A stretch of DNA of 34,871 bases, taken from Paludibacteraceae bacterium. GTDB lineage: Bacteria > Bacteroidota > Bacteroidia > Bacteroidales > Paludibacteraceae. Of this stretch, positions 1,429 through 27,726 are shown piece by piece (position 1 is the first letter of the stretch; each line of letters opens with the position of its first letter). Below the pieces are notes generated by a model, which saw only the letters and a program-made list of their open reading frames with translations, was not told the origin of the DNA and did not search any database. The stretch spans positions 1 to 34,871 of the forward strand of contig JAFSQV010000023.1 in NCBI GenBank assembly GCA_017446455.1, written 5' to 3'. A program made the position numbers and the translations under genes.

Positions 1429-2363
1429 CCTCACTCCTCGTCATACGTTTTTCAGCTTTGGGCGACGTAGCATTGCTGGCGCCTGTAGTGCGAGCGGTTG
1501 CAGAGCAACACCCTGACGTACAGGTCACGGTGCTTTCGCAGCAGCGTATGGCGGACTTGTTTGCCGACATGCCGGCGAACGTATCTTTCCACGGGGTCGA
1601 TCTCAAGCACCAATCCTTGCGCGAGATAGTCGCCGGTTTAGGACGGTTTGACCTGGTAGCCGATATGCACGGCGTATGGCGGTCGCTGTATATACGTACT
1701 ATCATGCGTTTACGCGGGGCAAAAGTACGAACCATCCGAAAAGACCGTTTTAGCCGTTTTTTTCTAACGCATCATATAAGCCGTAAACCGCTGAAACACA
1801 GCGTGTTACGGTATGGCGAGGTGTTGCATGGTCTAGAACTGCCTGCTTCCGCGATGGAGCACCCTTGCAAGACGGAAGGCGAAGGTATCGGTATTGCGCC
1901 TTTTGCGGCGCATCAAGGTAAGATCTACCCGCTCGAGCGAATGGAGCGCGTGGTGGAATTGCTGAGTAAGCAGGGCGAGAAAATCGTCCTCTTCGGAGGA
2001 GGAGAACAGGAGAAAGAACTATTGGAGGCTTGGACAACCAAATACCCAAACGTAGAGAGCGTAGCCGGTAAATACACCTTAGGCGAAGAGTTGGAGTTGA
2101 TGCGCGGACTGCGCGTGATGGTGACGATGGATAGCGCGAACATGCACCTGGCCTCGTTGGTGGGTACCAGAGTGGTTTCTATATGGGGTGCTACGCATCC
2201 CGACGCAGGGTTTATGGGGTACGGGCAAAGCCAGAATGATTGTATTCAACGCGACCTTCCTTGCCGTCCCTGCTCTATCTACGGAAAGAAGAAATGTAAA
2301 TTCGGCGACTATCGGTGTATGGATATCGCGCCGGAAGAGATAGTGGATAAAGTTGAAAGGTGA
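1425..2363 (+). CDS. Glycosyltransferase family 9 (heptosyltransferase-like)
   Basis: This 312-residue cytoplasmic GT9 enzyme is of the type that adds heptose or a related sugar to the LPS core from a nucleotide-activated donor. The N-terminal Rossmann start LLVIRFSALGDVALLAPVV, the GIGIAPFAAHQGKIYPLERM segment and the donor-site region VTMDSANMHLASLVGTRVVS are typical. A Cys-rich tail (PCRPCSIYGKKKCKFGDYRC) resembles other Bacteroidota members. The start overlaps the previous stop by four bases (ATGA). The stop codon TGA at 2361-2363 lies inside a GGTGAAA tandem array, so the last residues (KVER) are encoded by repeat sequence. The next gene, an LPS-kinase-like protein, supports a core-oligosaccharide role. 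Confidence 0.88.
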   Translation: MTSLLVIRFSALGDVALLAPVVRAVAEQHPDVQVTVLSQQRMADLFADMPANVSFHGVDLKHQSLREIVAGLGRFDLVADMHGVWRSLYIRTIMRLRGAKVRTIRKDRFSRFFLTHHISRKPLKHSVLRYGEVLHGLELPASAMEHPCKTEGEGIGIAPFAAHQGKIYPLERMERVVELLSKQGEKIVLFGGGEQEKELLEAWTTKYPNVESVAGKYTLGEELELMRGLRVMVTMDSANMHLASLVGTRVVSIWGATHPDAGFMGYGQSQNDCIQRDLPCRPCSIYGKKKCKFGDYRCMDIAPEEIVDKVER

Positions 2364-2380
2364 AAGGTGAAAGGTGAAAA
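2352..2380 (+). repeat. Heptamer array GGTGAAA at the GT9/kinase junction
   Basis: Three to four GGTGAAA units contain both the TGA stop of the GT9 gene (2361-2363) and the GTG start of the kinase gene (2374-2376). Confidence 0.9.
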
Positions 2381-3108
2381 CGGTCATTAATCCGACATAT
2401 GAAGCCCTGCGAACGTGGATAGAAACGATCCCGCAGATCTTTGCCCAACAAGGTGAAGTGATCTACGATGAGCGCAACCAAGTGCGGGCGTTGACGGCGC
2501 CGGATGGCACCAAAATATGCGTGAAGCGTTTTCATGTGCCGCGTTTTCTGAACAAGTATATCTACCGCTATGTGCGGGCCGGCAAAGCCCAACGTGCGTA
2601 CGAGAACGGGCTATACCTGTTGGCGCATCAGGTAGGGACACCGGAACCGATCGCGTATATCGAGGAATATCAACACGGAGGACTCGGCTATTCGTACCTC
2701 ATCACCCGCTTGTCGACTTTGAAGCATCTTCACCGCGAGTTCACGCAGGCCTATACGCCGGCGCTGGATGCTACCATTCGCCCGCTCGCCCGCTTTGCGG
2801 CGCATATGCACGAAGAAGGCATCCTGCATCTTGATTTCTCGCCGGGAAACATCCTCTGGGATAGCGTGGACGGCGAGTACCGGTTTGAGATCATCGACAT
2901 CAACCGGATGGCGTTCGGACGGGTGAGTATGAAAGCCGGTTGCCGCAGTCTGTGCCGCTTATGCGCCCGGACGTCTTTCTTCGATGAGTTTGCCGACGAG
3001 TATGCGAAAGCGCGGCATCTGGACCCGGACCAATGCCGGCATTGGATACATTACTACCGGAACCGTTTCTGGCATAACGGACGGAAAGCAAAATATCAAT
3101 ATGATTAA
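2374..3108 (+). CDS. Lipopolysaccharide core kinase-like protein (InaA/WaaP/KdkA type)
   Basis: This 244-residue protein belongs to the small LPS-kinase branch of the protein-kinase fold, which phosphorylates core sugars (heptose or Kdo) with ATP. The visible motifs are the lysine strand TKICVKRF, the catalytic loop HLDFSPGN (residues about 150-157; catalytic Asp and metal-binding Asn) and the metal-binding segment IIDINR in place of DFG. The only usable start is GTG at 2374, which is itself part of the GGTGAAA array; an in-frame TGA lies at 2368-2370, so no earlier start exists. The gene overlaps the following GT2 gene by eight bases. The substrate is inferred from the family and from the adjacent GT9 gene. 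Confidence 0.8.
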   Translation: MKTVINPTYEALRTWIETIPQIFAQQGEVIYDERNQVRALTAPDGTKICVKRFHVPRFLNKYIYRYVRAGKAQRAYENGLYLLAHQVGTPEPIAYIEEYQHGGLGYSYLITRLSTLKHLHREFTQAYTPALDATIRPLARFAAHMHEEGILHLDFSPGNILWDSVDGEYRFEIIDINRMAFGRVSMKAGCRSLCRLCARTSFFDEFADEYAKARHLDPDQCRHWIHYYRNRFWHNGRKAKYQYD

Positions 3109-3787
3109 GCATCTTATCCATAGGCTTGCCTGTTGGCTGCATATCCGCCGACGCATGTTCATTGTCCCCCAAGAAGGCAAAGAGCATGCTGTTCGCATCT
3201 CCTATGCCATCACGGTATGCAACGAGGCAGAGCAGTTAAAGAGCCTTTTGGAGTTTTTGCAGCCATACGTCCAAGCAGGCGATGAGATTGTGGTTCAGGC
3301 AGATCAAGCGAACGTGAGCGATGCCGTACAGGAGGTAGTAAAAGCACACCCGGGTGCGCGGTATGCAGAGCACGAGTTGCGTTTCGATTTCGCGCAAACC
3401 AAGAACCATCTAAACGGGCAATGCCACGGCGATTGGATTTTCCAACTGGATGCAGACGAGCGACCCTCGTCCTTTCTCATGAGCCATCTCAAAAGCATCC
3501 TTTGCGCCAATACGGATTGCGAACTAATTAAACTTCCCCGCCTCAACATGTTTGTCCGAGAAGGGAAAGAAGTGGAGGAGGGTCATGTCGCATGGCCCGA
3601 TTACCAAGGTCGTCTGTACCGTAACATTCCTCAGCGTATCCAATGGCATCGCCCGTTGCACGAGAAGATACAAGGCTACAAAGCTTATACCTACCTGCCC
3701 AAAGACGACCGATATGCCATCCTTCATATCAAGGACAAGGAGCAGGACCGACAGAAATGGCAAACCTGGAAAGAGCATTACCGATGA
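3101..3787 (+). CDS. Glycosyltransferase family 2
   Basis: This 228-residue GT-A fold enzyme resembles the WaaE/KdtX-like branch of GT2, which adds a sugar to the LPS inner core. Visible features are the nucleotide-binding start ISYAITVCNEAEQLKSLLEF, the acidic metal-binding motif LDADE within GDWIFQLDADERPSS, and a C-terminal basic region. The frame is open from 2984, but that start would overlap the kinase by 125 bases. ATG 3101 overlaps it by only eight and gives a normal-length protein, so I chose it. The stop overlaps the next start (ATGA). The acceptor and donor are not determinable here. Confidence 0.85.
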   Translation: MIKHLIHRLACWLHIRRRMFIVPQEGKEHAVRISYAITVCNEAEQLKSLLEFLQPYVQAGDEIVVQADQANVSDAVQEVVKAHPGARYAEHELRFDFAQTKNHLNGQCHGDWIFQLDADERPSSFLMSHLKSILCANTDCELIKLPRLNMFVREGKEVEEGHVAWPDYQGRLYRNIPQRIQWHRPLHEKIQGYKAYTYLPKDDRYAILHIKDKEQDRQKWQTWKEHYR

Positions 3788-4875
3788 CTATCGCTTATTA
3801 CATAGCATCCCCGACTTGGGGCGGAGGCGAGCAGTACGTGTTCGACCTCGCCCGCCATATGAAGGCGCAGTACGACGTGCAGCCTTTCTTTCTGTTGCCC
3901 GCTCACAGCGATGCAGCGATGATTGCGCGGTTTGCGCAGATAGGCGAAGCAGCAGTTTTCCCCTATGCGGGCAAGATCTGGCGATTCAGTCCTTTCGCCG
4001 GACGGCAGTTAGCCAAACTCTTAGACGCGCGCCATACCGATATCCTGCATATCAACAGTCGGCAGATTTATTTTCTCGCCGCCTGGGCCAAGCGGCATGC
4101 GAACCATCCTTTCCGACTGATCGCTACGCAGCACCTGGCGCGCCCGGCCAAAACCGGTGCCCTCTGGCGATGGATCTATCGGCAGATAGACAATTTGATT
4201 TGCGTCAGTCAGTTGGTGCGCGAGACCTACCTGCGTCCGCTCAAAAGCGATACCTGTTTTCAGGACGTGCACGTCGTCTATAACAGCGTTCCTGTTCGCC
4301 GCGAAGAGGCCACGGCGCAAAAACCGGATGCTACCCTGCCCCGACTTCTTTTCCACGGCCGTATATGCCGGGAGAAAGGTATCGAACCGCTCTTCCAAGC
4401 TTTAAGCCAAGTGAAAGACCTGCCCTTCCGCATCACCTTTGCCGGAAAGATTGCCGCGGAGGATCAAGCACTCTGGGAACGCTTATTAACTGCTTCGCCG
4501 GTACGCGACCGAATCGACTATATCGGTTTTCGCGAGGACATCCGCTCGCTCATGCGCACCTGCGATATCGGCGTCTCGCCTTCGCTCGCGCGCGAGGCGG
4601 GTTCGCTATCGCTGATCGAAGACCTATCTATGGGTTTGGCGATCATCACCTCTTCGTCCGGATCCCAGCCGGAGATCATTCAACACGGCCACAACGGTTT
4701 GCTCTGCCCGCCGAACGACCCGCAAGCGCTGGCTGATGCCCTTCGTTCCTTACTCACCGATCCGGAATTAATGAAACGCTTGGGCCAACAGGCGCAGAAG
4801 GATTTTTTTGCGCACTACACCTACGAGGCGTTTCTTGAATCGATGTATCATTTTTACGCTCCTGCCGCATGCTGA
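3784..4875 (+). CDS. Glycosyltransferase family 4 (first of two)
   Basis: This 363-residue GT-B retaining glycosyltransferase has an N-terminal acceptor domain with the glycine loop PTWGGGEQYVFDLARHM and a C-terminal nucleotide-sugar domain beginning LLFHGRICREKGIEPLFQAL. The retaining E-x7-E motif is visible as EAGSLSLIE. The frame extends upstream to 3643, but the ATG at 3784 gives the canonical GT4 start MTIAYYIASPTWGGGEQY and the four-base ATGA overlap with the GT2 gene. It overlaps the next GT4 gene by seven bases (ATGCTGA). Position within the surface-glycan operon suggests core or O-antigen elongation; the sugar specificity is unknown. Confidence 0.9.
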   Translation: MTIAYYIASPTWGGGEQYVFDLARHMKAQYDVQPFFLLPAHSDAAMIARFAQIGEAAVFPYAGKIWRFSPFAGRQLAKLLDARHTDILHINSRQIYFLAAWAKRHANHPFRLIATQHLARPAKTGALWRWIYRQIDNLICVSQLVRETYLRPLKSDTCFQDVHVVYNSVPVRREEATAQKPDATLPRLLFHGRICREKGIEPLFQALSQVKDLPFRITFAGKIAAEDQALWERLLTASPVRDRIDYIGFREDIRSLMRTCDIGVSPSLAREAGSLSLIEDLSMGLAIITSSSGSQPEIIQHGHNGLLCPPNDPQALADALRSLLTDPELMKRLGQQAQKDFFAHYTYEAFLESMYHFYAPAAC

Positions 4876-6014: not shown

Positions 6015-7167
6015 CATCCAGTTTTATCTCTTTCTCGCGGTAGTAGCGCTGCTGCCCTTCCCCCAGATCTTTCTACGGTACGCCTGCGTGCTATGGTTCG
6101 CAGCATGGTTACTCGAAGGCCGGTGGCTGCGAAAAACCAATTTCCAATCTCCAATCTCCAATTTTCAATCCGCCATCCCATTCCTTTTATTCGGCCTCTG
6201 GTATGGATGGAAACTGCTCTCGGGCTTATGGGCGGCAGACACGGCGGCATGGGCTTCGCAGGCGGAGCGATATATCTCTTTCGGCGTGATGGTGCCGGTA
6301 GGCTTATGGGGAGTGAACGAACGCTATGACTGGCGGCTGGCCGGCAAAGTGCTGGTGTGGAGCTGTGTCTGCGCGGCGGTCTTCTATCCTATCCTCTTGA
6401 CCGTCTTGCTGTACCACCGCGAGATCATCGACACCACCCACTGGGTGGCAAACTGGGACTATAGCTCCACGGACTGGTGGTATTTCTACCAGATCAACCT
6501 CTCGCATGTCAAGTACCGCTTAATTCTCGACAGCGTACTGACCTTGGGCATCCTACTGGCTACCCGGTTGTGGTTTACCGAACGAAAGGGACTGTGGGCT
6601 GCAGTGACGGCTCTCTTGACCGGCAGCATCCTCTTGTCCGGTTCGCGCCAAGCCTTCATCACACTGGTCGTCATCGTCGTGATAGCCTTAGGTTTTTGGC
6701 TCTCGCGACGGATGAAAAAAACCTACGCAGCGGGCATCATCGTCCTTGCCTTGGTGGTAGGCGGAATAGTGATCTCCCTTCACCCGCGTATACAGGCGAT
6801 GGATATACAGTCCGAAGAACGGATACAGATCTGGGAAGCGGCTTTGCAGCAGCCTGCGGACTATCTATGGGTAGGATTAGGGGGCGGTCAAGACGGCGTA
6901 TCACTCCTGCGGGCGCACAGTCACAACCAGTACCTGCAGGAGTTGCGCGAAGGCGGTATCGTCGGTCTGATACTGTTCCTGCTGGCGTGGATCTCCGTCC
7001 CACTCTGCGCATCAAAAAAACAAAAAGAACTCGCGATTCTCTTCACGGTTCTCTTCGCTTGTAACATGTGTACCGAGTGCATGTTCGCCCGGTACTGCGG
7101 CGTAGCCTTATGGTCGGTAGGATTACTTTTTATGTTGCTGCAGACCGACGCTGCACGTGAGCAATAG
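5986..7167 (+). CDS. O-antigen ligase / Wzy-type polymerase family membrane protein
   Basis: This 393-residue polytopic inner-membrane protein has roughly ten or more hydrophobic segments and the Wzy_C family signature. GSRQAFITLVVIVV is followed by a periplasmic loop and HSHNQYLQELREGGIVGLIL, which carries the conserved H-S-H-N element. Such proteins either ligate O-antigen to lipid A-core or polymerise O-units; the two cannot be separated by sequence alone. Residues about 51-62 (KTNFQSPISNFQ) are encoded by a five-unit CCAATCT heptamer array at 6137-6171, which is probably an acquired insertion in a loop. The 3' end overlaps the convergent outer-membrane protein gene by 45 bases, with no terminator between them. 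Confidence 0.85.
   Translation: MTRYTDILGSIQFYLFLAVVALLPFPQIFLRYACVLWFAAWLLEGRWLRKTNFQSPISNFQSAIPFLLFGLWYGWKLLSGLWAADTAAWASQAERYISFGVMVPVGLWGVNERYDWRLAGKVLVWSCVCAAVFYPILLTVLLYHREIIDTTHWVANWDYSSTDWWYFYQINLSHVKYRLILDSVLTLGILLATRLWFTERKGLWAAVTALLTGSILLSGSRQAFITLVVIVVIALGFWLSRRMKKTYAAGIIVLALVVGGIVISLHPRIQAMDIQSEERIQIWEAALQQPADYLWVGLGGGQDGVSLLRAHSHNQYLQELREGGIVGLILFLLAWISVPLCASKKQKELAILFTVLFACNMCTECMFARYCGVALWSVGLLFMLLQTDAAREQ
6137..6171 (+). repeat. Heptamer array CCAATCT inside the O-antigen ligase gene
   Basis: Five units (CCAATTT, CCAATCT, CCAATCT, CCAATTT, TCAATCC) encode NFQSPISNFQS in frame. Confidence 0.9.
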
Positions 7168-9967: not shown

Positions 9968-11255
9968 GCAGGTCCTGCTCGGTTAAACAATCCGTGATAT
10001 ATACTTGTCCGAAGCGCCGCACGCAAGCCGGTTGGCCTATCAGGTCGCGCTCCAGGTGCAAGAGGTCGTATTGGGTGTAGCGGTTGTATTGGTTGCGCAC
10101 CAGCACCGCTTGGTCGTCATAGAAGAATCGGTAGAGGGACGGCTGTTGAAACGAACCGTCAAAGACTACGGGTAGCCCCTGCGCCTCGGCGTGTATCGCT
10201 TCGCACTGCGCCTGCTTGCCCGCCAAACCGCTCTGCGGCGGCAGGATATTCAGCATCAGCACAATCCGGGCTATCACTATGAGTCCGGCGAAGACGCCGA
10301 AGGTGATCGACACACCGCGCCGCCAGAGCGCTTCTTCTTCCGTCAGCAGGATGATCGCCGGAAGGCTCGTCACCACCGTCCAATGAGGTTCGACATGTCC
10401 GCGGAAGGACATCAGCAGGAAGAAGACCTGAAAACCGAGTACGGTCCAAGCGAGGGTGTGGCGGAAGAGGTCTTCGGTGCGGAAGGCTTTGATACTCAGC
10501 CAAACCATCAGCGCCCATACGAGCGGATTGAACACCGCCCATTGGTTCGGGATATACTCCCATGTAAAAAGCGGCCGGTAGGCCTCCGCGCGAGAGACAA
10601 GATGATAGGTGAAAGACGGGAAGTTGTGACTATACTGCCACCATAGATGCGGCACCATCAGCACGGCGGCGATGCCTACCGCCATCCATGCCCGCTTGTC
10701 TTTGAGCAGTCGCCAATTGGCCACCACCGTCAAACCAATCACCAGCACCGCCATGTACTTGCTGTACAACATACCCGCCATGCTGATTCCGAGCAGCGTC
10801 GTCATCGACCATGAATGGTCGGTTAGATACCGCCGATAGGCGTAATAGAACAGCGCGGCGAAGAAGAGCAGCGGTGCATCCGGTGTCGTCAAAAAACCAT
10901 ACGCGCAGAACATCGGCAGCGAAGCTGCGATTAATAAGAAATGGTAAATGGTAAATGGTAAATGGTAAATGCGCACGGTCTTCCACACGACCCACACCGT
11001 CGCGACATGCATTAAAACGGTAACAAGCCTGACACTCAGGTTCTTGAGTATCAAGCTTGTAGTCGGTATGAGTGCGCCGGAAATGGCGGTCATCAGTCCC
11101 ACCATCGGCGGGTGGTCAAAATAGCCCCAACTGAGGAATTGTCCGTAGAGCCGGTAATAGGCTTCGTCCGCATGAATCTCGCAGAAGAGCGCGCACAACA
11201 AATCCAGTATGCCCCAAACGAGCAACCATGGCCATATGCGCGTTTCACCTTTCAC
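9960..11255 (-). CDS. GT39/ArnT-like polytopic membrane glycosyltransferase
   Basis: This 431-residue inner-membrane protein has about ten hydrophobic helices and the GT39/PMT_2 signature in its first periplasmic loop: HADEAYYRLYGQFLSWGYFD followed by HPPMVGL. Family members transfer a sugar from a polyprenyl-phosphate donor to lipid A, a glycan or a protein. The start is GTG at 11253-11255; the earlier in-frame GTG is followed by a TGA within the same repeat, so no longer product is possible. That GTG belongs to a GGTGAAA array located between dnaJ and this gene. A second array of AAATGGT units (10941-10968) encodes the internal peptide YHLPFTIYHF. The partner gtrA-like gene follows directly. 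Confidence 0.85.
   Translation of the reverse strand: MKGETRIWPWLLVWGILDLLCALFCEIHADEAYYRLYGQFLSWGYFDHPPMVGLMTAISGALIPTTSLILKNLSVRLVTVLMHVATVWVVWKTVRIYHLPFTIYHFLLIAASLPMFCAYGFLTTPDAPLLFFAALFYYAYRRYLTDHSWSMTTLLGISMAGMLYSKYMAVLVIGLTVVANWRLLKDKRAWMAVGIAAVLMVPHLWWQYSHNFPSFTYHLVSRAEAYRPLFTWEYIPNQWAVFNPLVWALMVWLSIKAFRTEDLFRHTLAWTVLGFQVFFLLMSFRGHVEPHWTVVTSLPAIILLTEEEALWRRGVSITFGVFAGLIVIARIVLMLNILPPQSGLAGKQAQCEAIHAEAQGLPVVFDGSFQQPSLYRFFYDDQAVLVRNQYNRYTQYDLLHLERDLIGQPACVRRFGQVYITDCLTEQDLHE
10939..10971 (+). repeat. Heptamer array ATGGTAA inside the GT39-like gene
   Basis: Four exact units at 10941-10968 plus partial units. On the coding (minus) strand it encodes HLPFTIYHF. Confidence 0.9.
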
Positions 11256-11282
11256 CTTTCACCTTTCACTTTTCACCTTTCA
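11243..11282 (-). repeat. Heptamer array GGTGAAA at the dnaJ/GT39 junction
   Basis: On the minus strand five units (one variant, AGTGAAA) run from the TGA stop of dnaJ to the GTG start of the GT39-like gene. Same unit and same arrangement as at 2352-2380. Confidence 0.9.
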
Positions 11283-12443
11283 AATCCCAAACAGGTTGCG
11301 GAAGAAATTCTTCTTATCGGCAGCGCCCGGCGCGATGTTCGGACTGCTCTGCAGTTGCTCGATCAGTTTGCGCTCGTCCTTGTTCAGTTTCTCAGGGATA
11401 TAGACGCCTACGTTGATGAGCAGGTCGCCTACTCCGTAGTTGCGACCGTATTGGTCGATACGCGGCAGACCTTTGCCTCGCATACGCAGCACCTTGCCCG
11501 GTTGGGTTCCCGGCGTGATGGTGATCTTCACGTCACCCGTGAGCGTCGGTATCTGCACTTGTCCGCCGAGCACAGCCGTCGGCATATCGAGCAGCAGGTT
11601 GTATATCAGGTCGCTCTCTTGGCGCACGAAGTCCTTGTGTTCTTCTTCCTCGATGAGCACGAGCAGGTCGCCGTTGACGCCACCGTGCGGCGCGGCATTA
11701 CCCTTGCCGGGCACGGTCAGTTGCATTCCGCCTGCGACACCCGCAGGGATAGTGATGGTGATGATCTCTTCGTCGCGTACGACACCCTGGCCGCCGCATT
11801 TCGGGCACTTGTTCTTGATCACGCGTCCTTCGCCGCCGCAGGTCTCGCATTCGGATTGCACCTGCATCATACCGAAGATTCCGCGTTGCTGACGGATGAC
11901 GCGTCCGGAACCTTTACAGGTCGGGCAGGTCTCGGTGTTGCCGTCGGCGCTACCGGTACCGTGGCAGTCCTTGCATTGCACGAGTTTGCGCACTTTGATC
12001 TTCTTCTCGCAGCCCTGCGCTATCTCTTCGAGCGTGAGGCGCACCTTGACGCGCATGTCACTACCGCGATGTACACGCGGACCGCGACTGCGGCCGCCGC
12101 CACCCATGAACATCTCGCCGATGTCGCCCAGGTCGAAACCTGCGCCTTGGAAGATATCGCCGAAATGGGTGAAGATATCCTCCATCGACATGCCGCCGCT
12201 GCTGAATCCGCCTGCGCCACCCATGCCGGCGAAGCCGTATTGGTCATAGCGCGCACGTTTCTGCGGGTCCGACAGCACCTCGTACGCTTCAGCCGCCTCC
12301 TTGAATTTCTCCTCGGCTTCTTTGTCGCCGGGGTTCTTGTCAGGGTGGTACTGAATCGCCTTCTTGCGGTAGGCTTTCTTTATCTCGTCGGCGGTAGCGG
12401 TCTTCGCCACCTCCAGCACTTCATAATAATCACGCTTATCCAT
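11280..12443 (-). CDS. dnaJ: Chaperone DnaJ (type I Hsp40)
   Basis: This 387-residue co-chaperone stimulates DnaK ATPase and delivers unfolded clients. All four regions are present: the J domain with HPD at residues 33-35, a Gly/Phe-rich linker ([18 protein letters not shown]), the zinc-binding region with four CxxCxGxG repeats ([32 protein letters not shown]), and the C-terminal substrate-binding domains. Length is normal. The ATG at 12441-12443 abuts a 15-base direct repeat that fills the grpE-dnaJ gap, and the TGA stop opens the GGTGAAA array that leads into the GT39-like gene. It is downstream of grpE on the same strand, so the two chaperone genes probably share a transcript. Confidence 0.97.
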
Positions 12444-12531
12444 TTACAATTTGTACATTTACAATTTGTTCATTTATTTAGTCATTTAGTCATTTTACCA
12501 TTATATCAAATGGTACATGGTACATGACCAA
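12442..12531. repeat. Mixed tandem repeats filling the grpE-dnaJ gap
   Basis: A 15-base direct repeat (12442-12456 and 12457-12471, one mismatch), an 8-base repeat ATTTAGTC (12476-12491, two units) and a 7-base repeat TGGTACA (12511-12524, two units). The dnaJ ATG lies in the first of them. Confidence 0.85.
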
Positions 12532-12544: not shown

Positions 12545-13105
12545 TTATTCCCCGACAACGACTTTCGCGAAGCGGATGACTTTTTCGCCGAGTTTGTATC
12601 CTTTCTGGGTGCAGTCGATCACTTTGCCTTTCTGGTCCTCGCCGGCGGCGAAGGTCGTCACGGCCTCGTGCTCGTCGGTGTTGAAGTCCGCACCTTCGGT
12701 CTCGATAGCATGCACGTCATTCGCTGCCAGGAAAGCCAGGAACTTTTTGTAGATTAACTGAATTCCCTCCTTTGTACTTTGTACATCGTCACTTTGTACA
12801 TTAATAGCCCGCTCGAAGTCATCGACGAGCGGCAGCATGTCCTTGAAGATACGCTCACCGGCCGTCGCCATGAGGTCGAGTTTCTCTTTGTTGGTACGCT
12901 TGCGGTAGTTGTCGAACTCCGCCATCATCCGCAGGTTCTTGTCCTCCAGTTCGGCCTTCTGTTCTTCCAACTCCGCGATACGCTCCTTGAGCTCTTCTGC
13001 CTCATCAGCACCCTCTGTAGGCGCTTCGGCGCCGTCCTGTAGCGTAGCGTCCTGTAGGCGCTCTGCGCCGTCCTGTAATTCTTTTTCTTTATCTTTCTTT
13101 GCCAT
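12545..13105 (-). CDS. grpE: Nucleotide exchange factor GrpE
   Basis: This 186-residue protein exchanges ADP on DnaK. It has an acidic, disordered N-terminus, a long coiled coil (about residues 34-65, EELKERIAELEEQKAELEDK), and the conserved core MAEFDNYRKRTNKEK followed by the beta-wing with GKVIDCTQKGYKLGEKVIR. The N-terminus has a repeated LQDGAE-type peptide encoded by GC-rich direct repeats (13012-13078), and the segment NVQSDDVQSTK is encoded by CTTTGTA-type repeats at 12770-12802; neither is a usual part of GrpE. A sigma-54-like promoter and a large palindrome lie just upstream. dnaJ follows after 101 bases of repeat-rich sequence. Confidence 0.96.
   Translation of the reverse strand: MAKKDKEKELQDGAERLQDATLQDGAEAPTEGADEAEELKERIAELEEQKAELEDKNLRMMAEFDNYRKRTNKEKLDLMATAGERIFKDMLPLVDDFERAINVQSDDVQSTKEGIQLIYKKFLAFLAANDVHAIETEGADFNTDEHEAVTTFAAGEDQKGKVIDCTQKGYKLGEKVIRFAKVVVGE
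12770..12802. repeat. CTTTGTA repeats inside grpE
   Basis: CTTTGTA occurs twice in tandem (12770-12783) and again at 12792-12798. On the coding strand it encodes NVQSDDVQSTK. Confidence 0.7.
13012..13078. repeat. GC-rich direct repeats in the grpE N-terminus
   Basis: GTCCTGTA occurs three times, separated by GC-rich inverted repeats such as GGCGCTTCGGCGCC. It encodes repeated LQDGAE/LQDAT in the disordered N-terminus of GrpE. Confidence 0.8.
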
Positions 13106-16420: not shown

Positions 16421-17102
16421 TATTCGTCGCGTTATGGAATAATTGTTCTAAGTCGTTTATTTCGTCTATGGGTTGGTCGGCTTTTATCTCGCCATGGTCG
16501 AGAATGACGACGCGGTCACACATGGCGCTGACCTCTTGCATGATATGCGTGGAGAGAATGACCGTACGCTCTTTGCCAAGGTCGCGAATGAGAGACCGGA
16601 TCTCCACCAATTGGTTGGGGTCGAGGCCGGTGGTGGGTTCATCGAGGATGAGCAGTTGGGGGTTGCCGAGGAGCGCCTGGGCGAGGCCGACACGCTGGCG
16701 GTAGCCTTTGCTCAGTTCGCGGATATGCTTATGGCGCTCCGGCGTCAAGCCGACGCGGTCGATGAGGTCATCGACATTGGATATTGGAGATTGGACATTC
16801 TCTGCCGCAAGGGCGCGATTAACTCCGTTTTTGGTCATTTTGGCCATGAACTCAAGGTACTCGGCGACGTACATCTCGTCGTAGAGGGGGTTGTTCTCGG
16901 GGAGGTAGCCGATGCGTTCGGGCACGGCAACGGAACCGCTGTCGGCGCGCCAGAGACCGATAAGGATTTTCATCAGCGTGGACTTACCGGCACCGTTCGG
17001 CCCGAGCAGTCCGAGAACTTGGCCTTCGGGAATGGACAGCGTGACGTCGCGCAGGACTTGCTGCGCCCCAAAAGACTTGTTGATATGCTCAATATGCACC
17101 AT
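16407..17102 (-). CDS. ABC transporter ATP-binding protein (GldA-like)
   Basis: This 231-residue ABC ATPase has Walker [10 protein letters not shown], signature [15 protein letters not shown], Walker [14 protein letters not shown] and H-loop LSTHIMQEV. Its closest family is the GldA/NatA-like group of Bacteroidota ABC-2 exporters, but no permease gene (such as GldF/GldG) lies beside it, so the transported substrate is unknown. I chose the ATG at 17100-17102 ([12 protein letters not shown]), which matches the family start; an in-frame ATG at 17117 would add five residues and leave almost no leader after the promoter. The segment [18 protein letters not shown] is encoded by a 25-base dispersed repeat joined to an ATTGGA-type heptamer array, an apparent in-frame insertion. 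Confidence 0.88.
16776..16803 (+). repeat. Heptamer array ATTGGAN inside the GldA-like gene
   Basis: Units ATTGGAT, ATTGGAG, ATTGGAC, then ATTCTCT. On the coding strand it encodes VQSPISN. Confidence 0.85.
16798..16822. repeat. 25-base dispersed repeat, copy 2 (inside GldA-like gene)
   Basis: Matches 13225-13249 with three differences and directly abuts a heptamer array. It encodes NRALAAEN in frame. Confidence 0.8.
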
Positions 17103-17557: not shown

Positions 17558-18331
17558 TCATTTTTTGCAGGAAAGGCGCTCTGCAAAGGCTTCTGCTTCA
17601 GCAATCCGGTCGATTTTTCCGACATCCATCATGCGATAGTCTTTCGGAACGAAAGCCTTCAAGATTGGTAAATGGTAAATGGTAAATGGTGTATGCTCGC
17701 AGAGCGAGAGATAGAAATCTATCAACGAGAATTTCTCTTGAGGCATCTTCGCTAAGAGCGCCAAAGCCTCGGGACTGAGAATCTGCATGCCGGAGAAGGC
17801 GAGTTTTTGGAAATTGGAGATTGAAGATTGGAGATTGGCAGGACGCACTTCGCCGGTGGCGATATTCGTCCAGCCGCATAGGCAGTCTCTCTCATCGAAG
17901 CAGAGATAGCGCTGAGTCTTTCTTTCGCTCACCACCAACTGACTAATGCCGGTACGCTCATATTCAGCGATTAGCGTACTTATGTCGATATTGCTTAATA
18001 TATCTACATTGCAAGCTAAGATTGGTGTAGGGTGTAGGGTGTAAGGTGTAAGGGCTTTCTTGAGGCCACCGCCGGTGTCGAGGAGTTGGTCGCGCTCGTC
18101 GGAGATAGTGATGTTACAACCCCAGCCGTCGTTCGCGCGAACGGTTTCGATGATCTGGTCGGGAAAATGGTGCACATTGACGATGATGTCGGTGATGCCG
18201 GCGTCGCGGAGTTTCTCCACCTGCCACTGCAGCAAAGGTTTGCCGGCCAGCGGTACCAGCGCTTTCGGCATCGTGTCCGTGAGGGGTTTGAGGCGCGTGC
18301 CAAGGCCCGCACAAAAGATCATCGCTTTCAT
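17558..18331 (-). CDS. MurU-like nucleotidyltransferase (sugar-1-phosphate uridylyltransferase family)
   Basis: This 257-residue NTP_transferase enzyme has the pyrophosphorylase signature MIFCAGLGTRLKPLTDTMPK followed by ALVPLAGKPLL, the GGG of LLDTGGGLKKA and the metal-site region ACNVDIL. The closest functional group is MurU, which converts MurNAc-1-phosphate plus UTP to UDP-MurNAc, although mannose-1-phosphate guanylyltransferases look similar. The upstream AmgK-like kinase and RapZ-domain genes favour MurU. It overlaps the RapZ-domain gene by four bases (ATGA). Three separate heptamer arrays lie inside the frame, encoding TPYTLHPTP, NLQSSISNFQ and HTPFTIYHLP. All are in loops away from the motifs, so the protein is probably still functional. 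Confidence 0.8.
   Translation of the reverse strand: MKAMIFCAGLGTRLKPLTDTMPKALVPLAGKPLLQWQVEKLRDAGITDIIVNVHHFPDQIIETVRANDGWGCNITISDERDQLLDTGGGLKKALTPYTLHPTPILACNVDILSNIDISTLIAEYERTGISQLVVSERKTQRYLCFDERDCLCGWTNIATGEVRPANLQSSISNFQKLAFSGMQILSPEALALLAKMPQEKFSLIDFYLSLCEHTPFTIYHLPILKAFVPKDYRMMDVGKIDRIAEAEAFAERLSCKK
17664..17691 (+). repeat. Heptamer array AATGGTA inside the MurU-like gene
   Basis: Four units (ATTGGTA, AATGGTA, AATGGTA, AATGGTG). On the coding strand it encodes HTPFTIYHLPI. Confidence 0.9.
17804..17838 (+). repeat. Heptamer array AGATTGG inside the MurU-like gene
   Basis: Five units (TTTTTGG, AAATTGG, AGATTGA, AGATTGG, AGATTGG). On the coding strand it encodes NLQSSISNFQK. Confidence 0.9.
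18024..18054 (+). repeat. Heptamer array GGTGTAG inside the MurU-like gene
   Basis: Four units (GGTGTAG twice, GGTGTAA twice). On the coding strand it encodes LTPYTLHPTP. Confidence 0.9.
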
Positions 18332-18729
18332 AACTCTTTCTCTATCCCGCGCTCGCGGTGAATAAGATGAATAGCAACGTTATACTTCTCTTTCAGGTGT
18401 TGGGCCAGGTGCTCGGCGCAATAGACGGAACGGTGCTGACCGCCGGTGCAACCGAAAGCCACCTGCAGGTGGGTGAAATCGCGCTCGATGAACCGCTCTA
18501 CATGATGGTCAATAAGGGCATAGACGGAGTTCAGGAAGGTGAGTATCTCGCCGTCCGATTCGAGGAAGTCGATGACGGGTTGGTCCAAGCCCGTGAGGAA
18601 CTTGAACTGCTCGTACTTACCGGGGTTGTGGGTAGAACGGCAGTCGAACACATACCCGCCGCCATTACCGGATTCATCCACCGGGATGCCGCGCTTAAAC
18701 GAGAAGGAGTAGACTGTTACTGAGAGCAT
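18328..18729 (-). CDS. Stand-alone RapZ C-terminal domain protein
   Basis: This 133-residue protein matches only the C-terminal domain of RapZ: YSFSFKRGIPVDESGNGGGY, VFDCRSTHNP and the highly conserved GCTGGQHRSVYCAEHLA. In enteric bacteria this domain binds glucosamine-6-phosphate and controls GlmS synthesis via small RNAs. The N-terminal P-loop ATPase domain of RapZ is absent here. The gene overlaps the upstream AmgK-like kinase gene by 35 bases in another frame and the MurU-like gene by four. From memory, related Bacteroidota genes carry the kinase and this domain fused in one protein, so this may be a split fusion. A role sensing amino-sugar phosphate for cell-wall salvage is inference. 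Confidence 0.85.
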   Translation of the reverse strand: MLSVTVYSFSFKRGIPVDESGNGGGYVFDCRSTHNPGKYEQFKFLTGLDQPVIDFLESDGEILTFLNSVYALIDHHVERFIERDFTHLQVAFGCTGGQHRSVYCAEHLAQHLKEKYNVAIHLIHRERGIEKEL

Positions 18730-19615
18730 ATAGATAAGGATATTCGTCTTTGAGTTGCTCGAGTACCTCGCGCAGGTTTTTCAGCGCCAGAGGAATGGAC
18801 TCGAGGAAATGCGGTTTGCGCTCGAAATAACCGCGGTAACCGTACGCACCAAGCACTTGGAGGGTGCGCAAGAGCACGAAATGGGGCAAAGCGGATCTCC
18901 AATCCGCTTTATTGGTAAATGGTGAATGGTAAATGGTGATTTCTACTTTCTCCAATTCGCCCAAATAGGCGTCGATCAGTTGTTCGCGAAGGGCGGGCGA
19001 GAAGTTCGCTTTGGCTTGCCAGAGGAAAGAGGCTACGTCGTACTGCATCGGTCCGCGGCGTCCGCCTTGGAAATCGATGAAGTACGGTTGGTCATCGCGT
19101 ATCATCACATTCCGACTCTGGCAATCGCGATAGAGGAATGTCTCTGCCGGTTGCGCCAAAATGACCTGCACCAACGTATCGAAATCATCTTCCAGTTTGG
19201 GTTCGGAGAACTCGATCTTCGTGCCCTTGAGGAAGCAGTATTTGAAATAGTTGAGGTCCCACCGTATCGCGCGTTCGTCCATCGCGGGCACGGGAAAACA
19301 GACAGACCAGTCGAAGTCTTTCGCGCCCGTGACCTGTATATGCGCGAGGGCGCGTATCGTGCGTTCTAATAAGGTATAGTTATCGAGATGGTCGAAGAGG
19401 ATGGTGTCGCCCAGGTCCTCCTGGGTATAACTCATCTCGTCGTCGCTCACCGAATAGAGTTCCGGCACCGGCAGACCGAGCGCATGAAAATGGCGCGCCA
19501 TATAGATGAACGCACGGTTCTCATCGCGGTTCGTTCCCTGTACGCGAATGACCGAACGACCATTGGCGTCCGTCTCGCGGGTGTAGATTCTATTGGAACC
19601 CTGTTGCTTTAGCAT
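18695..19615 (-). CDS. AmgK-like aminoglycoside-phosphotransferase-fold sugar kinase
   Basis: This 306-residue APH-fold kinase has the catalytic loop LYRDCQSRNVMI, with Asp and Asn in the usual places, and the metal site FIDFQGGRRGPMQYDVAS. The wording of these motifs resembles AmgK, the anomeric MurNAc/GlcNAc kinase that makes MurNAc-1-phosphate for MurU during peptidoglycan recycling. It overlaps the lipid-kinase gene by seven bases (ATGCTAA) and the RapZ-domain gene by 35. The peptide KVEITIYHSPFTN is encoded by an AATGGTR heptamer array (18911-18941) next to a 9-bp inverted repeat. A choline or other APH-type substrate cannot be excluded. Confidence 0.78.
   Translation of the reverse strand: MLKQQGSNRIYTRETDANGRSVIRVQGTNRDENRAFIYMARHFHALGLPVPELYSVSDDEMSYTQEDLGDTILFDHLDNYTLLERTIRALAHIQVTGAKDFDWSVCFPVPAMDERAIRWDLNYFKYCFLKGTKIEFSEPKLEDDFDTLVQVILAQPAETFLYRDCQSRNVMIRDDQPYFIDFQGGRRGPMQYDVASFLWQAKANFSPALREQLIDAYLGELEKVEITIYHSPFTNKADWRSALPHFVLLRTLQVLGAYGYRGYFERKPHFLESIPLALKNLREVLEQLKDEYPYLYALSNSLLLLV
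18888..18941 (+). repeat. Inverted repeat plus heptamer array AATGGTR inside the AmgK-like gene
   Basis: AAAGCGGAT (18888-18896) and ATCCGCTTT (18902-18910) form a 9-bp inverted repeat that directly adjoins four heptamer units (18911-18938). On the coding strand it encodes TIYHSPFTNKADWRSAL. Confidence 0.88.
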
Positions 19616-20542: not shown

Positions 20543-20572
20543 TATTAGTGTTTAGCGTTTAGTGTTTAGCGA
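20543..20572 (+). repeat. Heptamer array GTTTAGY upstream of the lipid kinase
   Basis: Units TATTAGT, GTTTAGC, GTTTAGT, GTTTAGC fill the gap between the start codon and the terminator hairpin. Confidence 0.88.
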
Positions 20573-20613: not shown

Positions 20614-20620
20614 AGGTTTG

Positions 20621-21244: not shown

Positions 21245-21311
21245 TGTAGTATATATTTTATATTTTCGTTCAAATCAAGGGACTTTTCGCATAATTACAC
21301 GAAAAATCGCG

Positions 21312-21335
21312 CAAAGGTACTGCTTTTTTTTGAGA
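21312..21335 (-). promoter_or_regulatory. Promoter of rpmB-rpmG-DUF4295
   Basis: Minus-strand -7 box TACCTTTG at 21312-21319 is preceded by an A-tract and GCAG, the same arrangement as in the tRNA promoters. Confidence 0.8.
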
Positions 21336-21374
21336 TACACAAATTTTTTTGTAAAAAAATGCGATTTTTTTGCG

Positions 21375-21400
21375 TATTTAAAAAAAATGTGCTATCTTTG
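21375..21400 (+). promoter_or_regulatory. Promoter of the SulP transporter gene
   Basis: -7 box TATCTTTG at 21393-21400 follows an A-rich stretch. It fixes the start codon at 21419. Confidence 0.75.
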
Positions 21401-21418
21401 CGCCGAATTAAAGATTGT

Positions 21419-23152
21419 ATGCAATATTCCATTAAGGATATTTTTTCTCCGAAGTTATTTAGCACGCTCCGCACGTATAGTCGTGCGCAATTCGGGCAGG
21501 ATGCTTTGGCCGGAATCATCGTCGGAATTGTCGCTATTCCGCTGGCAATCGCGTTCGGTATTTCGTCCGGCGTAGGTCCGACGGAGGGATTGGTGACCGC
21601 CATCATCGCGGGGCTGCTGATCTCCGTTTTCGGCGGTAGCAAAGTGCAGATCGGCGGACCGACGGGTGCGTTCATCGTCATCATCTACGGCATCATCCAG
21701 CAGTTCGGTTTGGCGGGTCTGATGATCGCCACCGTGATGGCTGGTATCTTGCTGATTATTATGGGTTTAGCACGCTTGGGTTCAGTCATCAAATTCGTCC
21801 CCTACCCCGTCATTGTGGGTTTCACGGCGGGTATCGCGTTGACGATTTTCAGCACGCAGATGAATGATTTCTTCGGGTTGGGACTGACGAATGTGCCGGC
21901 GAATTTCGTAGATAAATGGATCTTCTATGCGCAGCATTTTCATATCAACAGTTGGGCCTTAGGTATCGGTCTTTTTTCGCTGCTGATATGTATCTTCATG
22001 CCGAAGCTCACGAAGCGCGTTCCGGGCAGTCTGGCGGCGATCATCTTCGCGACCTTCGCGGTATGGTTGCTCAAGAGTTATGCGCCGGCAGAATGGGGCG
22101 TAGCGAGCATACAGACGATCAGCGACTTATACGCTTTGCCGCACGGTATTCCGGCGCCGCACCTGCCTTCGCTGGAACTCGCGGAAGGTCAGAACTATTT
22201 CGGATTGGTGCGCGAACTCTTCCCGGCGGCTTTCACTATTGCGATGCTGGGTGCGATAGAGTCGCTGCTCTCCGCGATGGTGGCGGACGGTGTGATCGGC
22301 GACCGGCATAACTCGAACACCGAACTCATCGCACAAGGTATTGCGAATGTGGTAGTGCCGTTCTTCGGCGGCATTCCTGCAACGGGTGCGATAGCGCGTA
22401 CGATGACCAATATCAATAACGGCGGACGGACGCCTGTCGCGGGTGTGGTACACGCGCTCGTGCTACTGCTTGTGCTGCTGTTCTTGGGTCAGTTGGTCGG
22501 TATGATTCCGATGTCGTGTCTGGCGGCAGTACTGATCATGGTGGCGTACTCGATGAGCGGCTGGAAGACCATCGCGGGCCTGGCCAAGCACCGTACCCGT
22601 GATTTTTGGGTACTATTAGTAACCTTCTTCCTGACGGTGCTCTTCGACCTGACGATCGCCATCGAGGTGGGTCTGGTATTGGCGATGGTGCTGTTCCTGA
22701 TGCGTACGAACGAGCAGACGCATATTCGCACGCTGCACGATGAGATTGACCCGAATGAAGATACGGAGAGCAACCTTAACTTGGAGCACCTGACGATACC
22801 GGAAGGCGTAGAGGTTTACGAGATCGACGGTCCGTATTTCTTCGGTATCGCTAACCGTTTTGACGAGATTATGTTACACGTGAGCGGCAAAGAATACCCC
22901 ATCCGTATCATCCGTATGCGTAAGGTGCCGTTCGTCGATTCGACGGCGATGCACAACCTGAGTATGCTCATTCAGCGCTCGCATAAAGAAGGTATCACGA
23001 TCATCCTCTCGGGCGTCAATGACCACGTACACAAACAGTTGCTGATCGGCGGTATCGAGCAACAGATGGACCCGCATAATATCTGCGCGAACATCCATTT
23101 TGCTCTGCGCCGCGCTGAAGATATCTTAGAAAAAGAAAATCATAAATCATAA
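21419..23152 (+). CDS. SulP family anion transporter with STAS domain
   Basis: This 577-residue inner-membrane protein has the SulP transmembrane core beginning [20 protein letters not shown], the motif [18 protein letters not shown], later [20 protein letters not shown] and [20 protein letters not shown], and a C-terminal cytoplasmic STAS domain (about residues 460-577) ending in [15 protein letters not shown]. The family moves sulfate, bicarbonate or other inorganic anions; specificity is unknown. The frame is open from 21359, but the -7 box at 21393-21400 lies inside that extension, so the ATG at 21419 is the start. The stop TAA lies within an AAATCAT heptamer array. Confidence 0.93.
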
Positions 23153-23164
23153 ATTTGAAATCAT
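23137..23164 (+). repeat. Heptamer array AAATCAT at the end of the SulP gene
   Basis: Units AAATCAT, AAATCAT, AAATTTG, AAATCAT; the SulP stop TAA (23150-23152) is part of the array. Confidence 0.88.
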
Positions 23165-23199
23165 CATTTTTATTACTAACCCCTAAAAAATTTAACACT

Positions 23200-23748: not shown

Positions 23749-23763
23749 CCGGAGAGCCTCCGG
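23749..23763. terminator. Small hairpin between convergent rubrerythrin and mnmA
   Basis: CCGGAG AGC CTCCGG directly follows the rubrerythrin stop. There is no T-run, so a terminator role is uncertain. Confidence 0.4.
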
Positions 23764-23769
23764 AGGCGA

Positions 23770-26711: not shown

Positions 26712-27699
26712 ACGTCAGTATTTGTCGGTCAAAGAGTTCTTTGGGGGTACAGAACCGCACGCGGATAGGCAGAGCTATTAAGCGCTGGTTCTGTGCATGC
26801 AGGCGGTCCACAAGAGACGTCGTGCGCAGCCGCTGGATATCTTTCTCCGTCGTGAGGACGAAGTCAAAATCCTCCGCGCGCTGCATGATAGCGTCTATAT
26901 CCGCCGGCGTATAATGATGATGATCGGGATACGCCATCAATTCCGCCTTCGGAAAATGCTTCTTCACATACCGCATCATATAATGCGGTTGGGCGATGCC
27001 GCACAGCACGAGGGGCGTGCCCTCCTGCTCCATAGGGGCATAACTCAGTCCCGCAAAATGGAGCTGCTGGAAAGTAGGCAAGTGGAGGCGGTTGTCCACC
27101 ACGCGCATGTCTATCGGACGAATGCTGTCCGGGCACTTGGTCACCACTACCGCATCGGCCGTCAAGGCTCTGCTCGGCAGGTCGCGCAATGTGCCCCAAG
27201 GCAACATATGATCGTCGATATAGAGGTGGTCGTACGGCGTGAGGAGGATGGTGAAGCCGCAGCGCAACGCGCGGTGCTGCATCGCATCATCAAGCACGAC
27301 GACATCCAGTTTCTGCAACTGGCGCTGCAGTTGTTTGATACCGCGCACGCGGTTCTCGCACACGGCGATAGGAACCTCCGGAAACTTCCGATGCAGCTGC
27401 ATCGCCTCGTCACCGATCGTCTCTACCGTCGCCATACTGTCGGCCAACAGAAAACCGCGCGTCTTGCGCTTGTATCCGCGCGAGAGCACCGCCGGATGAT
27501 AACCGTTGTCCAACAGCAGCTGCAGCAGATACTCCACCATCGGTGTCTTTCCCGTACCGCCCACCGCCAGGTTACCCACGCATATGGTCGGTACATCGAC
27601 GCTAAACGAGGGTAACAGACGCTGGTCAAACAGCGTATGGCGGATGGCTACTCCAATGGAGTAGAGTCCACTAAGCGGTATGAGTAGCGCGTTGCGCAT
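26686..27699 (-). CDS. lpxK: Tetraacyldisaccharide 4'-kinase LpxK
   Basis: This 337-residue inner-membrane-associated kinase phosphorylates the 4' position of the lipid A precursor. The N-terminal amphipathic/membrane helix is followed by the P-loop GNLAVGGTGKTP (42-53) and then VVVLDDAMQHRAL, FTILLTPYDHLY and VVVTKCP. Length is typical. The ATG directly abuts a TATGGTG-type heptamer array that makes up the 24-base gap after sppA, and the gene overlaps the msbA-like gene by 26 bases. Neighbouring tamL and msbA-like genes make this an outer-membrane lipid and protein assembly operon. Confidence 0.96.
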   Translation of the reverse strand: MRNALLIPLSGLYSIGVAIRHTLFDQRLLPSFSVDVPTICVGNLAVGGTGKTPMVEYLLQLLLDNGYHPAVLSRGYKRKTRGFLLADSMATVETIGDEAMQLHRKFPEVPIAVCENRVRGIKQLQRQLQKLDVVVLDDAMQHRALRCGFTILLTPYDHLYIDDHMLPWGTLRDLPSRALTADAVVVTKCPDSIRPIDMRVVDNRLHLPTFQQLHFAGLSYAPMEQEGTPLVLCGIAQPHYMMRYVKKHFPKAELMAYPDHHHYTPADIDAIMQRAEDFDFVLTTEKDIQRLRTTSLVDRLHAQNQRLIALPIRVRFCTPKELFDRQILTYVREHKNT

Positions 27700-27700
27700 G

Positions 27701-27726
27701 TATGGTGTATAGTGTATGGCGTATTA
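27701..27726 (+). repeat. Heptamer array TATGGTG between sppA and lpxK
   Basis: Units TATGGTG, TATAGTG, TATGGCG and a partial TATTATT form the whole 24-base gap, touching the lpxK start and the sppA stop. Confidence 0.88.

Follow-up and report, generated by a model that had tools for sequence, protein, structure and literature searches.

The 34,871-nucleotide contig of a Paludibacteraceae bacterium analysed here (JAFSQV010000023.1 of assembly GCA_017446455.1; hereafter, the window) carries a set of short tandem arrays whose unit is seven nucleotides (nt) long, while the sequence of the unit differs from one array to another. The excess of such period-7 arrays was confirmed to be real, strong and genome-wide and, on the present sampling, it is bounded to one clade. 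An excess of heptamer repeats in bacteria has already been published; the new findings are that the unit (the word) at one and the same site is exchanged among relatives and that the words form genome-specific vocabularies inside ordinary genes.

The genome to which the window belongs as contig 74 (G000) comprises 100 contigs and 1.84 Mb and is 80% complete. The period-7 arrays in it were listed by Tandem Repeats Finder (TRF), and a score of at least 11 was used in our own period scan. TRF found 12 period-7 arrays with 2.6–5.7 copies each, starting at 2349, 6137, 10939, 11243, 16773, 17666, 17807, 18024, 18913, 20545, 23137 and 27699. The original prediction, made from the letters of the window, had counted about 12 arrays of three to five units; the number is right; the array at 23137 has only 2.6 units and that at 11243 has 5.7. 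Exact period-7 runs of at least 11 matches were observed seven times in the window versus 0.04 times expected from 50 second-order Markov shuffles. The same count gave 0 for periods 4–6, 1 for period 8 and 5 for period 14, which is a multiple of 7.

When 329 kb of G000 (the window and 20 other stretches) were scanned, 58 period-7 arrays were found, and the numbers at periods 5, 6, 8, 9, 10 and 11 were 0, 3, 4, 12, 2 and 9, respectively. Three third-order Markov shuffles of the same DNA yielded 0 arrays for periods 5–9 and 11, so the genome-wide peak over shuffled sequence that had been anticipated is present. Without the window, 47 period-7 arrays remained in 294 kb. Four relatives, scanned over 172–200 kb each, contained 23, 41, 34 and 41 of them. 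Summed over the five genomes (1.10 Mb), there were 197 arrays at period 7 against 11, 21 and 30 at periods 6, 8 and 9, and the third-order shuffles (three per genome) gave 0–0.67 arrays per genome and period. A second excess was seen at period 11 in the five genomes (40 arrays, 39 of them outside genes and 15 in G027).

It should be noted that six of the 20 G000 contigs had already been listed by a pattern search, the other 14 being picked by number alone. Most contigs of G001 (the nearest relative), G032 and G027 were likewise pre-listed by pattern searches, and all contigs of G018 were picked by number. The 14 number-picked contigs of G000 (174 kb) held 21 period-7 arrays, or 12.1 per 100 kb, versus one at period 6 and three at period 8. 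The density in the other bias-free subsets was 20.5 per 100 kb in G018 (all by number) and 23.3 in G027 (three contigs). With the two searched units left out, the five genomes still had 9.3–18.6 period-7 arrays per 100 kb. Both the density results and the vocabulary results given below hold once the bias in the choice of contigs is removed.

For the comparison among relatives, 46 genomes were found by the window gene that carries three arrays, and the array densities at that locus are therefore biased upward. These genomes are titled uncultured Bacteroidales or Paludibacteraceae, many of them from ruminants, and the nearest one (G001/L001) is isolate RUG372, with 92.7% identity over the aligned DNA. 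G000 itself is probably likewise an uncultured rumen bacterium. The density of period-7 arrays was 13–21 per 100 kb in the five array-rich genomes. Eight outlying relatives, which were picked for having no exact array at the first locus and were then measured on other stretches, contained 8 arrays in 279 kb (2.9 per 100 kb). Sixty genomes from 50 other Bacteroidota families (one stretch per genome, 44 stretches of 20 kb and 16 shorter) had 11 period-7 arrays in 962 kb, or 1.1 per 100 kb, along with 6 arrays at period 6 and 11 at period 12. Since the effect in the clade is about ten times that in the rest of the phylum, and near relatives are without it, the reason for the preference for a unit of seven becomes testable.

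A quick tree of three neighbouring proteins placed the array-rich rows in one group of 38 (Shimodaira–Hasegawa-like approximate likelihood ratio test, SH-aLRT, 82), with L041 and L035 (5 and 2 arrays per 100 kb) immediately outside. This fits one onset, that is, a single clade-bounded burst of period-7 arrays, although for most rows the density comes from one locus that was chosen for its arrays. Within the group, the density spans a wide range, with 5 per 100 kb in L005 at the lower end. Out of 296 genomes across the phylum, 15 contained an 18-mer of TTTCACC units, counting the genome of the window, indicating that other lineages carry some; the reversed-pattern control, itself a heptamer array, reaches 25. 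Separately, the metagenome-assembled genome L047 (Chitinophagaceae) showed 29 period-7 arrays per 100 kb (six arrays over the 21 kb of one locus), CATCGAT being an example of its units, which is possibly an independent burst.

Four slots inside genes of the window were traced through the relatives, and the counts include the window. Three of them lie on the minus strand within one MurU-like nucleotidyltransferase gene (TRF, Pfam): site A, a (CTACACC/TTACACC)4 array at 18024..18053; site B, a (CCAATCT)4.6 array at 17807..17838; and site C, a (TTTACCA)3.6 array at 17666..17690. Site D, an alternating (TTCACCATTTACCA) array at 18913..18939 on the minus strand, is within an APH-family kinase gene (TRF, Pfam). 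Of the 47 orthologues, 27 have a period-7 array at site A, where 14 units can be told apart; the counts are 14 of 44 at site D, 8 of 47 at site C and 4 of 47 at site B, six others having 8-mer arrays at the latter. These octamer arrays (CATCAATC/TCATTCCA type; L005, L007, L030, L035, L043 and L044) fill a slot of 48 nt in five relatives and 57 nt in L030 instead of 45 or 24. At site D, a perfect or near-perfect palindrome (TTCAGCCAAGCTTGGCTGAA type) occupies the slot in L004, L009, L010, L016, L025, L027, L032 and others, and a non-palindromic sequence of the same length in L041 and L031. Over the scanned stretches, palindromes were about twofold more frequent than in one shuffle in four of the five genomes, and the counts in G001 were 43 versus 9. 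These counts bear on quasi-palindrome correction as a candidate sister process; the palindromic elements of Rickettsia, for comparison, are insertions that fold into long hairpins.

The comparison of eight close pairs (85–94% identity of aligned DNA) at 48 sites showed the same unit in 8 cases, different units in 12 and an array in only one partner in 28. The 48 comparisons are 51 rows minus three duplicate-site rows, and one window site may count in two pairs; "in only one partner" means above the score cut-off, some short alleles retaining one to three units. Two of the 12 different-unit cases were one substitution apart, and the other ten were two to four apart. The claim that the period is conserved rather than the unit is thus supported, as period 7 recurs at slots that seldom keep their unit. 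The prediction had also named an outcome that would speak against it, namely orthologues in distant genera carrying the same sequences at the same sites as ordinary conserved protein segments; at the sites that we followed, the orthologues mostly differ in sequence.

Whole-unit steps were seen both within genes, where they were 21 bp long (L005/L007 and L014/L046), and between genes, where they were 7 bp long (L004/L010 and L003/L006). In the gap at 27699, L006 holds GATTGAT-type units instead of the TGTATGG of the window. Other changes left the length untouched. At 20545, TTAGTGT in the window stands against ATGGTGT in L001 at equal length and in equal register; CCAATCT in L014 stands against AAAATTA of equal length in L046, and L012 has an equally long piece of ordinary sequence at the place of an array in L008. 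On the tree, the unit at site A changed state 21 times versus a shuffled mean of 26.3 (minimum 24 of 300), and the numbers were 8 versus 7.98 at site C and 14 versus 13.9 at site D. Hence, the unit is inherited a little at site A, and no inheritance is detectable at sites C and D.

Such a patchy distribution would also arise if ready-made slot alleles were exchanged horizontally among the rumen relatives by homologous recombination, with the arrays as passengers and the patchy units imported. The classes at site D do have their own flanks and lengths and are scattered on the tree, a AVTGYGLRVTEWKA-type allele being present in L008, L020 and L046 and a NLQSSIFN-type allele shared by L011 and L014, of which L001 has a variant. 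Site A of L004 is likewise closer to that of L014/L046 than to that of its near twin L010. However, this process moves alleles only and creates neither the period-7 excess nor vocabularies at non-orthologous loci, and we consider it improbable as the explanation of the arrays.

The vocabularies were examined by whole-genome counts, in which pattern hits overlapping within one array were counted singly. The TTTCACC 18-mer was found in 29 of the 47 genomes with 0–55 hits (0 in 18 genomes), and 24–55 of these were present in each of G000, G001, G003, G023, G027 and G043. The AACCCGT 18-mer was found in 19 of the 47 with 0–80 hits, 80 of them in G032 and none in the six TTTCACC-rich genomes, and the top-ranking genomes for the two words were largely different. 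The reversed-pattern control reached up to 5 hits for TTTCACC and 0 for AACCCGT in the 47 genomes. In the five genomes, two arrays located on separate stretches had the same unit with a probability of 0.055, compared with 0.023 after permutation of the genome labels (maximum 0.042 of 500), and without the two searched units, this probability was 0.034 versus 0.016 (maximum 0.025 of 1000). Furthermore, the unit at a locus predicted its abundance elsewhere in the genome (p 0.004 for AAAGGTG and 5e-5 for AACCCGT; crossed controls 0.81 and 0.56).

The G000 sample comprised 32 rotation classes of units. The original prediction took the units for unrelated sequences. This is not the case within a genome, where many units are one or two substitutions apart and are repeated over many loci. 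Its preference for a generating mechanism over the copying of one element was right in part: the 7- and 21-bp steps resemble slippage, but the words recur at many loci and have therefore spread too, so that both a generating mechanism and the spread of particular words seem to be at work. If the vocabularies are explained by exchange between loci, bacteria would show concerted evolution of very short repeats that lie at unrelated loci.

We read these observations as the outcome of frequent 7-nt slippage together with a homogenisation that reaches across loci, heptamer turnover being a heritable, clade-specific replication habit, and we give this reading a probability of about 45%. Slippage is the established explanation for steps of unit gain and loss. 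What is needed in addition is a process by which the words are shared and altered throughout a genome even though the sites, in many cases the lengths and, at three of the slots, the register stay the same. In the proposed sequence of events, the number of whole units first rises and falls, the comparisons showing 7-bp steps between genes and 21-bp steps within them, the longer steps within genes being due to selection on the frame. The comparisons also show that the unit of an orthologous slot is replaced by another heptamer among species that are 85–94% identical, sometimes at constant length, and the agreement of the units in register, as counted from the 3' flank, at three in-gene slots belongs to this step. 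Each genome was seen to use a word set of its own over many loci that are unrelated, which suggests that something equalises the units across loci. A slipped nascent strand may pair briefly with another array in 7-nt phase and copy it, the partner lying elsewhere in the genome or being brought in by recombination. As pairing in phase would need a shared period, the period would be conserved while the unit drifts. Lastly, in-frame stops and most out-of-frame changes of length are missing from genes, as selection on the protein demands, and the in-gene arrays occupy slots that are variable in sequence among the relatives. The patchy alleles of site D suggest that some import of alleles by recombination goes on alongside array pairing. 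The published idea of slippage set by a polymerase footprint, according to which seven matches the DNA segment held at the active site of the polymerase (Mrazek 2007, as quoted in PMC4692102), would fit the present data.

Several points weigh against this reading. The changes in the arrays were read from comparison between species only. The agreement in register of the distinct units at a site, phased on the 3' flank and expressed as a mean Hamming distance between them of 3.93 versus 4.98 for random rotation at site A (0 of 2000) and as p 0.0095 at site C and p 0.0205 at site D, is uncorrected for the number of tests, and site B, which has one unit, offers no test. No effect was seen at the 5' flank of the slots under the same test. 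Agreement on the 3' side with none on the 5' side indicates an anchor for the arrays in the 3' flank, possibly because of seeding by the flank, a conserved 3' codon or the descent of some units from one array, and the register pattern may mean no more than one of the latter two. For words shared by G000 and its nearest relative G001, the value was 0.082 (0.001–0.027 for the other nine genome pairs), and such sharing between near kin is also expected from local processes with inheritance. Moreover, an imperfect 20-mer was shared by same-unit arrays in 26 of 175 pairs within genomes and in 19 of 164 between genomes (p 0.42), and the direct copying of tracts between loci is thus not supported.

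The last result is also what purely local slippage would give, in which a chance heptamer expands and contracts in place, point mutations spread inside the array and nothing passes between loci, the shared words being explained by inheritance and a bias to heptamers that slip easily. The 7-bp and 21-bp steps agree with this, as do the short alleles that keep 1.6–2.6 copies of the unit (L014 and L007) and the drift along an array from GGTGAAA through GGTGTAA to GGTGTAT in L063 (11741-11818). Meanwhile, the units at sites C and D lie on the tree as if shuffled, and G006, which a supported group unites with the window, L001 and L003, is devoid of TTTCACC 18-mers versus their 24, 39 and 45, indicating that vocabularies change faster than the tree. 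We regard local slippage alone as a serious, if rather unlikely, alternative to slippage with homogenisation across loci.

A stronger form of the homogenisation reading would be a trans-acting and often length-neutral rewriting keyed to the 7-nt period. Arrays at unrelated loci would overwrite one another in phase during replication, a changing vocabulary would resupply gaps and variable protein segments, and the capacity would have arisen once at the base of the rumen Paludibacteraceae clade; we hold this doubtful. Such a single origin would lead one to expect a change in some gene along the branch at the base of the clade. Among mutS, RVT_1, polA and the Y-family polymerase, searched in 37 genomes, presence or absence of none matches the onset, which likewise speaks against homogenisation as a clade-specific habit. 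The loss of mismatch repair was rejected, as mutS was above the cut-off in 37 of 37 genomes (in two pieces in G031). The polA gene was matched in all 37 (above the cut-off in 36) and the Y-family polymerase in 33, both lacking a clade pattern. RVT_1, the mark of templating by a reverse transcriptase or a telomerase-like enzyme, was present in 8 of the 37 genomes with no clade pattern either; it was not found in the 80%-complete G000 or in G001, G003, G018, G023 and G032, the completeness figure applying to G000 only. As for the PolA protein itself, its 3'-5' exonuclease region seems to be missing in the 28 array-rich genomes searched (two in-frame pieces, frame of 768-813 amino acids (aa)) and also in the array-poor G035, G036, G041, G042 and G045. 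PolA is full length in G037, G039 and G040 and cut by the contig end in G038. The polA gene of G000 is at G000:C75:9012-11318 (frame of ~790 aa).

The templated synthesis that the original prediction had offered as one option is accordingly unlikely. A dedicated element or enzyme that writes the arrays, either a mobile heptamer element or a reverse transcriptase that reads an RNA template, would explain why dispersed loci with genome-specific words resemble the read-out of a template. Imperfect tracts of 31–41 nt were common to separate loci in G018, G027 and G032, which counts for the homogenisation reading. In one of the seven array pairs examined (L101/L105 of G027), the shared tract continues beyond the array into the flank, as either reading would allow. 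In the other six pairs, only the array is shared; several unrelated words occur within one genome, and given the few genomes with RVT_1, we find such an agent very improbable. The L101 (13930) and L105 (4158) arrays, located on different contigs, have 31 nt in common, about 12 nt of which are non-repeat flank. They represent either a copied tract or paralogous genes and speak weakly for copying.

Genes were called by our own codon-usage finder, and arrays over a gene edge were counted as outside. By this count, 85 of the 197 arrays of the five genomes were inside genes and 112 were outside or over an edge. As genes make up 86–90% of the DNA and the remainder only 10–14%, the arrays are about tenfold denser outside genes. 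This density, together with the position of several window arrays at gene edges (2349, 20545 and 27699), is what one would expect if the arrays were regulatory sites bound by a protein that recognises DNA or RNA, a role proposed for the TAACTGA repeats of Beggiatoaceae. Against such a role stand the 85 arrays inside genes and the unit at one site, which often differs in near relatives in a way that a conserved binding site would not allow; the probability of this explanation is accordingly very small. Inside genes, the 85 period-7 arrays compare with 11, 18 and 12 arrays at the frame-keeping periods 6, 9 and 12. A frame-breaking period that tops the frame-keeping ones in genes (periods up to 12) is a natural source of new protein segments.

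As 7 and 3 have no common factor, a long enough array shows each triplet of the unit in each frame. The sense consensus unit was stop-free in 66 of the 85 in-gene arrays. Over the stretches scanned for density, 31 in-gene arrays would hold an in-frame stop if they were perfect, and the stop was edited out in all of them: mismatches fell on 40 of 114 positions within the would-be stops versus 35 of the 968 other positions. Since an open frame requires each would-be stop to have one mismatch or more, the informative part is the cleanness of the remaining positions. At site A of L010 and L029, for example, one GGTTAAA stands among GGTGAAA units exactly at the would-be in-frame TGA. The seven in-gene arrays listed in the original prediction are indeed stop-free as read. 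The orientation that it proposed as a rule follows from coding, but it is not strict, given the 31 arrays with edited stops. In the eight close pairs, in-gene differences in length were multiples of 3 in 28 of 29 comparisons, six of them being zero. This count is the observation that bears on phase variation of the contingency-repeat kind, where units gained or lost would switch a gene into and out of frame.

An artefact of metagenome assembly and binning would not respect the reading frame or edit stops. Nearly all relatives are metagenome assemblies, some contigs start in an array and a run of N lies within an array at one locus (G000:C88; L044); even so, we consider an artefact to be the least probable of the explanations, slippage with homogenisation across loci remaining the preferred one.

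Mrazek, Guo and Shah (2007, PNAS), as quoted in PMC4692102, described repeats with units of 7 nt as over-represented in prokaryotes relative to longer units of other sizes. The arrays resemble these heptameric simple sequence repeats (SSRs; Mrazek 2007, via PMC4692102) in that unit 7 exceeds other long units. They have the features of this class, namely a head-to-tail excess at 7 nt (197 versus 11, 21 and 30) and whole-unit copy changes among relatives. Unlike heptameric SSRs in general, they are far more in excess in one rumen Paludibacteraceae-type clade than in the other Bacteroidota sampled, they are common in genes and their units are genome-specific and exchanged at the same sites. In Xanthomonas and Nostoc, the GGGAATC and GGGGA(C/T)T repeats (Rehm 2015, PMC4692102) are similarly dispersed arrays of few units with variable copy number, many of them near gene edges. 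In contrast to the GGGAATC type, there are many units here, a change of unit or the loss of the array is seen at most sites, and genes contain 85 of the 197 arrays. The keeping of one unit class at the same place in a close relative, a trait of the GGGAATC type, is not the pattern in our pairs, where 8 of 48 comparisons keep the unit. A run of at least three G per unit on one strand is present in AACCCGT, AACCCAT and ACACCCT and absent from the common AAAGGTG, AATCTCC and AAAAATT, and the common units without G runs exclude a G-quadruplex as the common cause. Several different heptamer units also occur within one genome among the short tandemly repeated repetitive (STRR) heptamers of cyanobacteria, and we know of no site-by-site exchange of units there.

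It would be too strong to say that nothing of the kind is described for Bacteroidota: TAACTGA heptamers are reported from Beggiatoaceae, cyanobacteria and five Bacteroidetes, including Paludibacter propionicigenes (MacGregor 2015, PMC4679880). These repeats (PMC4679880) share with ours the heptamer arrays, the mixed heptamers in some genomes, the effect of orientation on stop codons in genes and 7-nt indels among relatives. They differ in that one unit was sought and that related heptamers were rarely or never tandem in the main genome of that study (PMC4679880), whereas dozens coexist here. The TAACTGA rotation class (AACTGAT) was not among the 60 of 75 classes listed or among the 32 classes of G000. 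The repeats of archaeal Borgs (PMC9879509) are also fast-evolving and independently formed, with about half of them within open reading frames (ORFs) and partial repeats at the edges. However, according to PMC9879509, every Borg unit inside a gene has a length divisible by three, and hardly any unit is common to two loci, while the unit here is 7 inside genes and the words are shared genome-wide. No description of word exchange at conserved sites or of genome vocabularies was found in the open-licence papers searched, by listings with the opening lines of abstracts.

The remaining arrays of the window are distributed among genes and gaps as follows (TRF; gene families by Pfam unless named by eye). 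The (TTTCACC)4.4 array at 2349..2379 (minus strand) covers both the stop codon that ends a glycosyltransferase-9 gene and the beginning of a Kdo/WaaP-like kinase gene. The (CCAATCT)4.9 array at 6137..6169 (plus strand) is within an O-antigen-ligase (Wzy_C) gene, and the perfect (TTTACCA)4.7 array at 10939..10971 (minus strand) is within a PMT_2 glycosyltransferase gene. Between the start of the PMT_2 gene and the stop of a dnaJ-like gene (by-eye name), there is a (TTTCACC)5.7 array at 11243..11282 (plus strand), which is missing from the relative L011. A degenerate (CCAATNT) array at 16776..16799 (minus strand), within an ABC-transporter ATPase gene, is missing from L001. The (TTAGTGT/TTAGCGT) array at 20545..20571 (plus strand) lies upstream of a DAGK-type kinase gene, (AAATCAT)2.6 at 23137..23154 (plus strand) runs across the stop of a SulP-type sulfate permease gene and (TGTATGG)3.7 at 27699..27724 (plus strand) fills the gap between two genes.

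TRF listed weaker period-7 arrays at 12510, 12770 and 21252. The first, (ATGGTAC)2.4 at 12510..12526 (plus strand), closes a cluster of short repeats between the dnaJ-like gene and a grpE-like gene (by-eye names), in which three short arrays with units of 15, 8 and 7 follow one another at 12441-12526 (TRF). The second, a degenerate (CTTTGTA) array at 12770..12799 (plus strand), is within the grpE-like gene, and L011 has ordinary sequence in its place. The third has 2.1 copies and lies within a stretch conserved among the relatives, and it is probably not one of these arrays. The closest PDB match of the nucleotidyltransferase that carries sites A–C is 4y7t, and we take this protein to be MurU. 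At 17558-19615, the nucleotidyltransferase, a RapZ C-terminal domain protein and the APH-family kinase stand in a row (Pfam, PDB match), which resembles a cell-wall-sugar recycling cluster.

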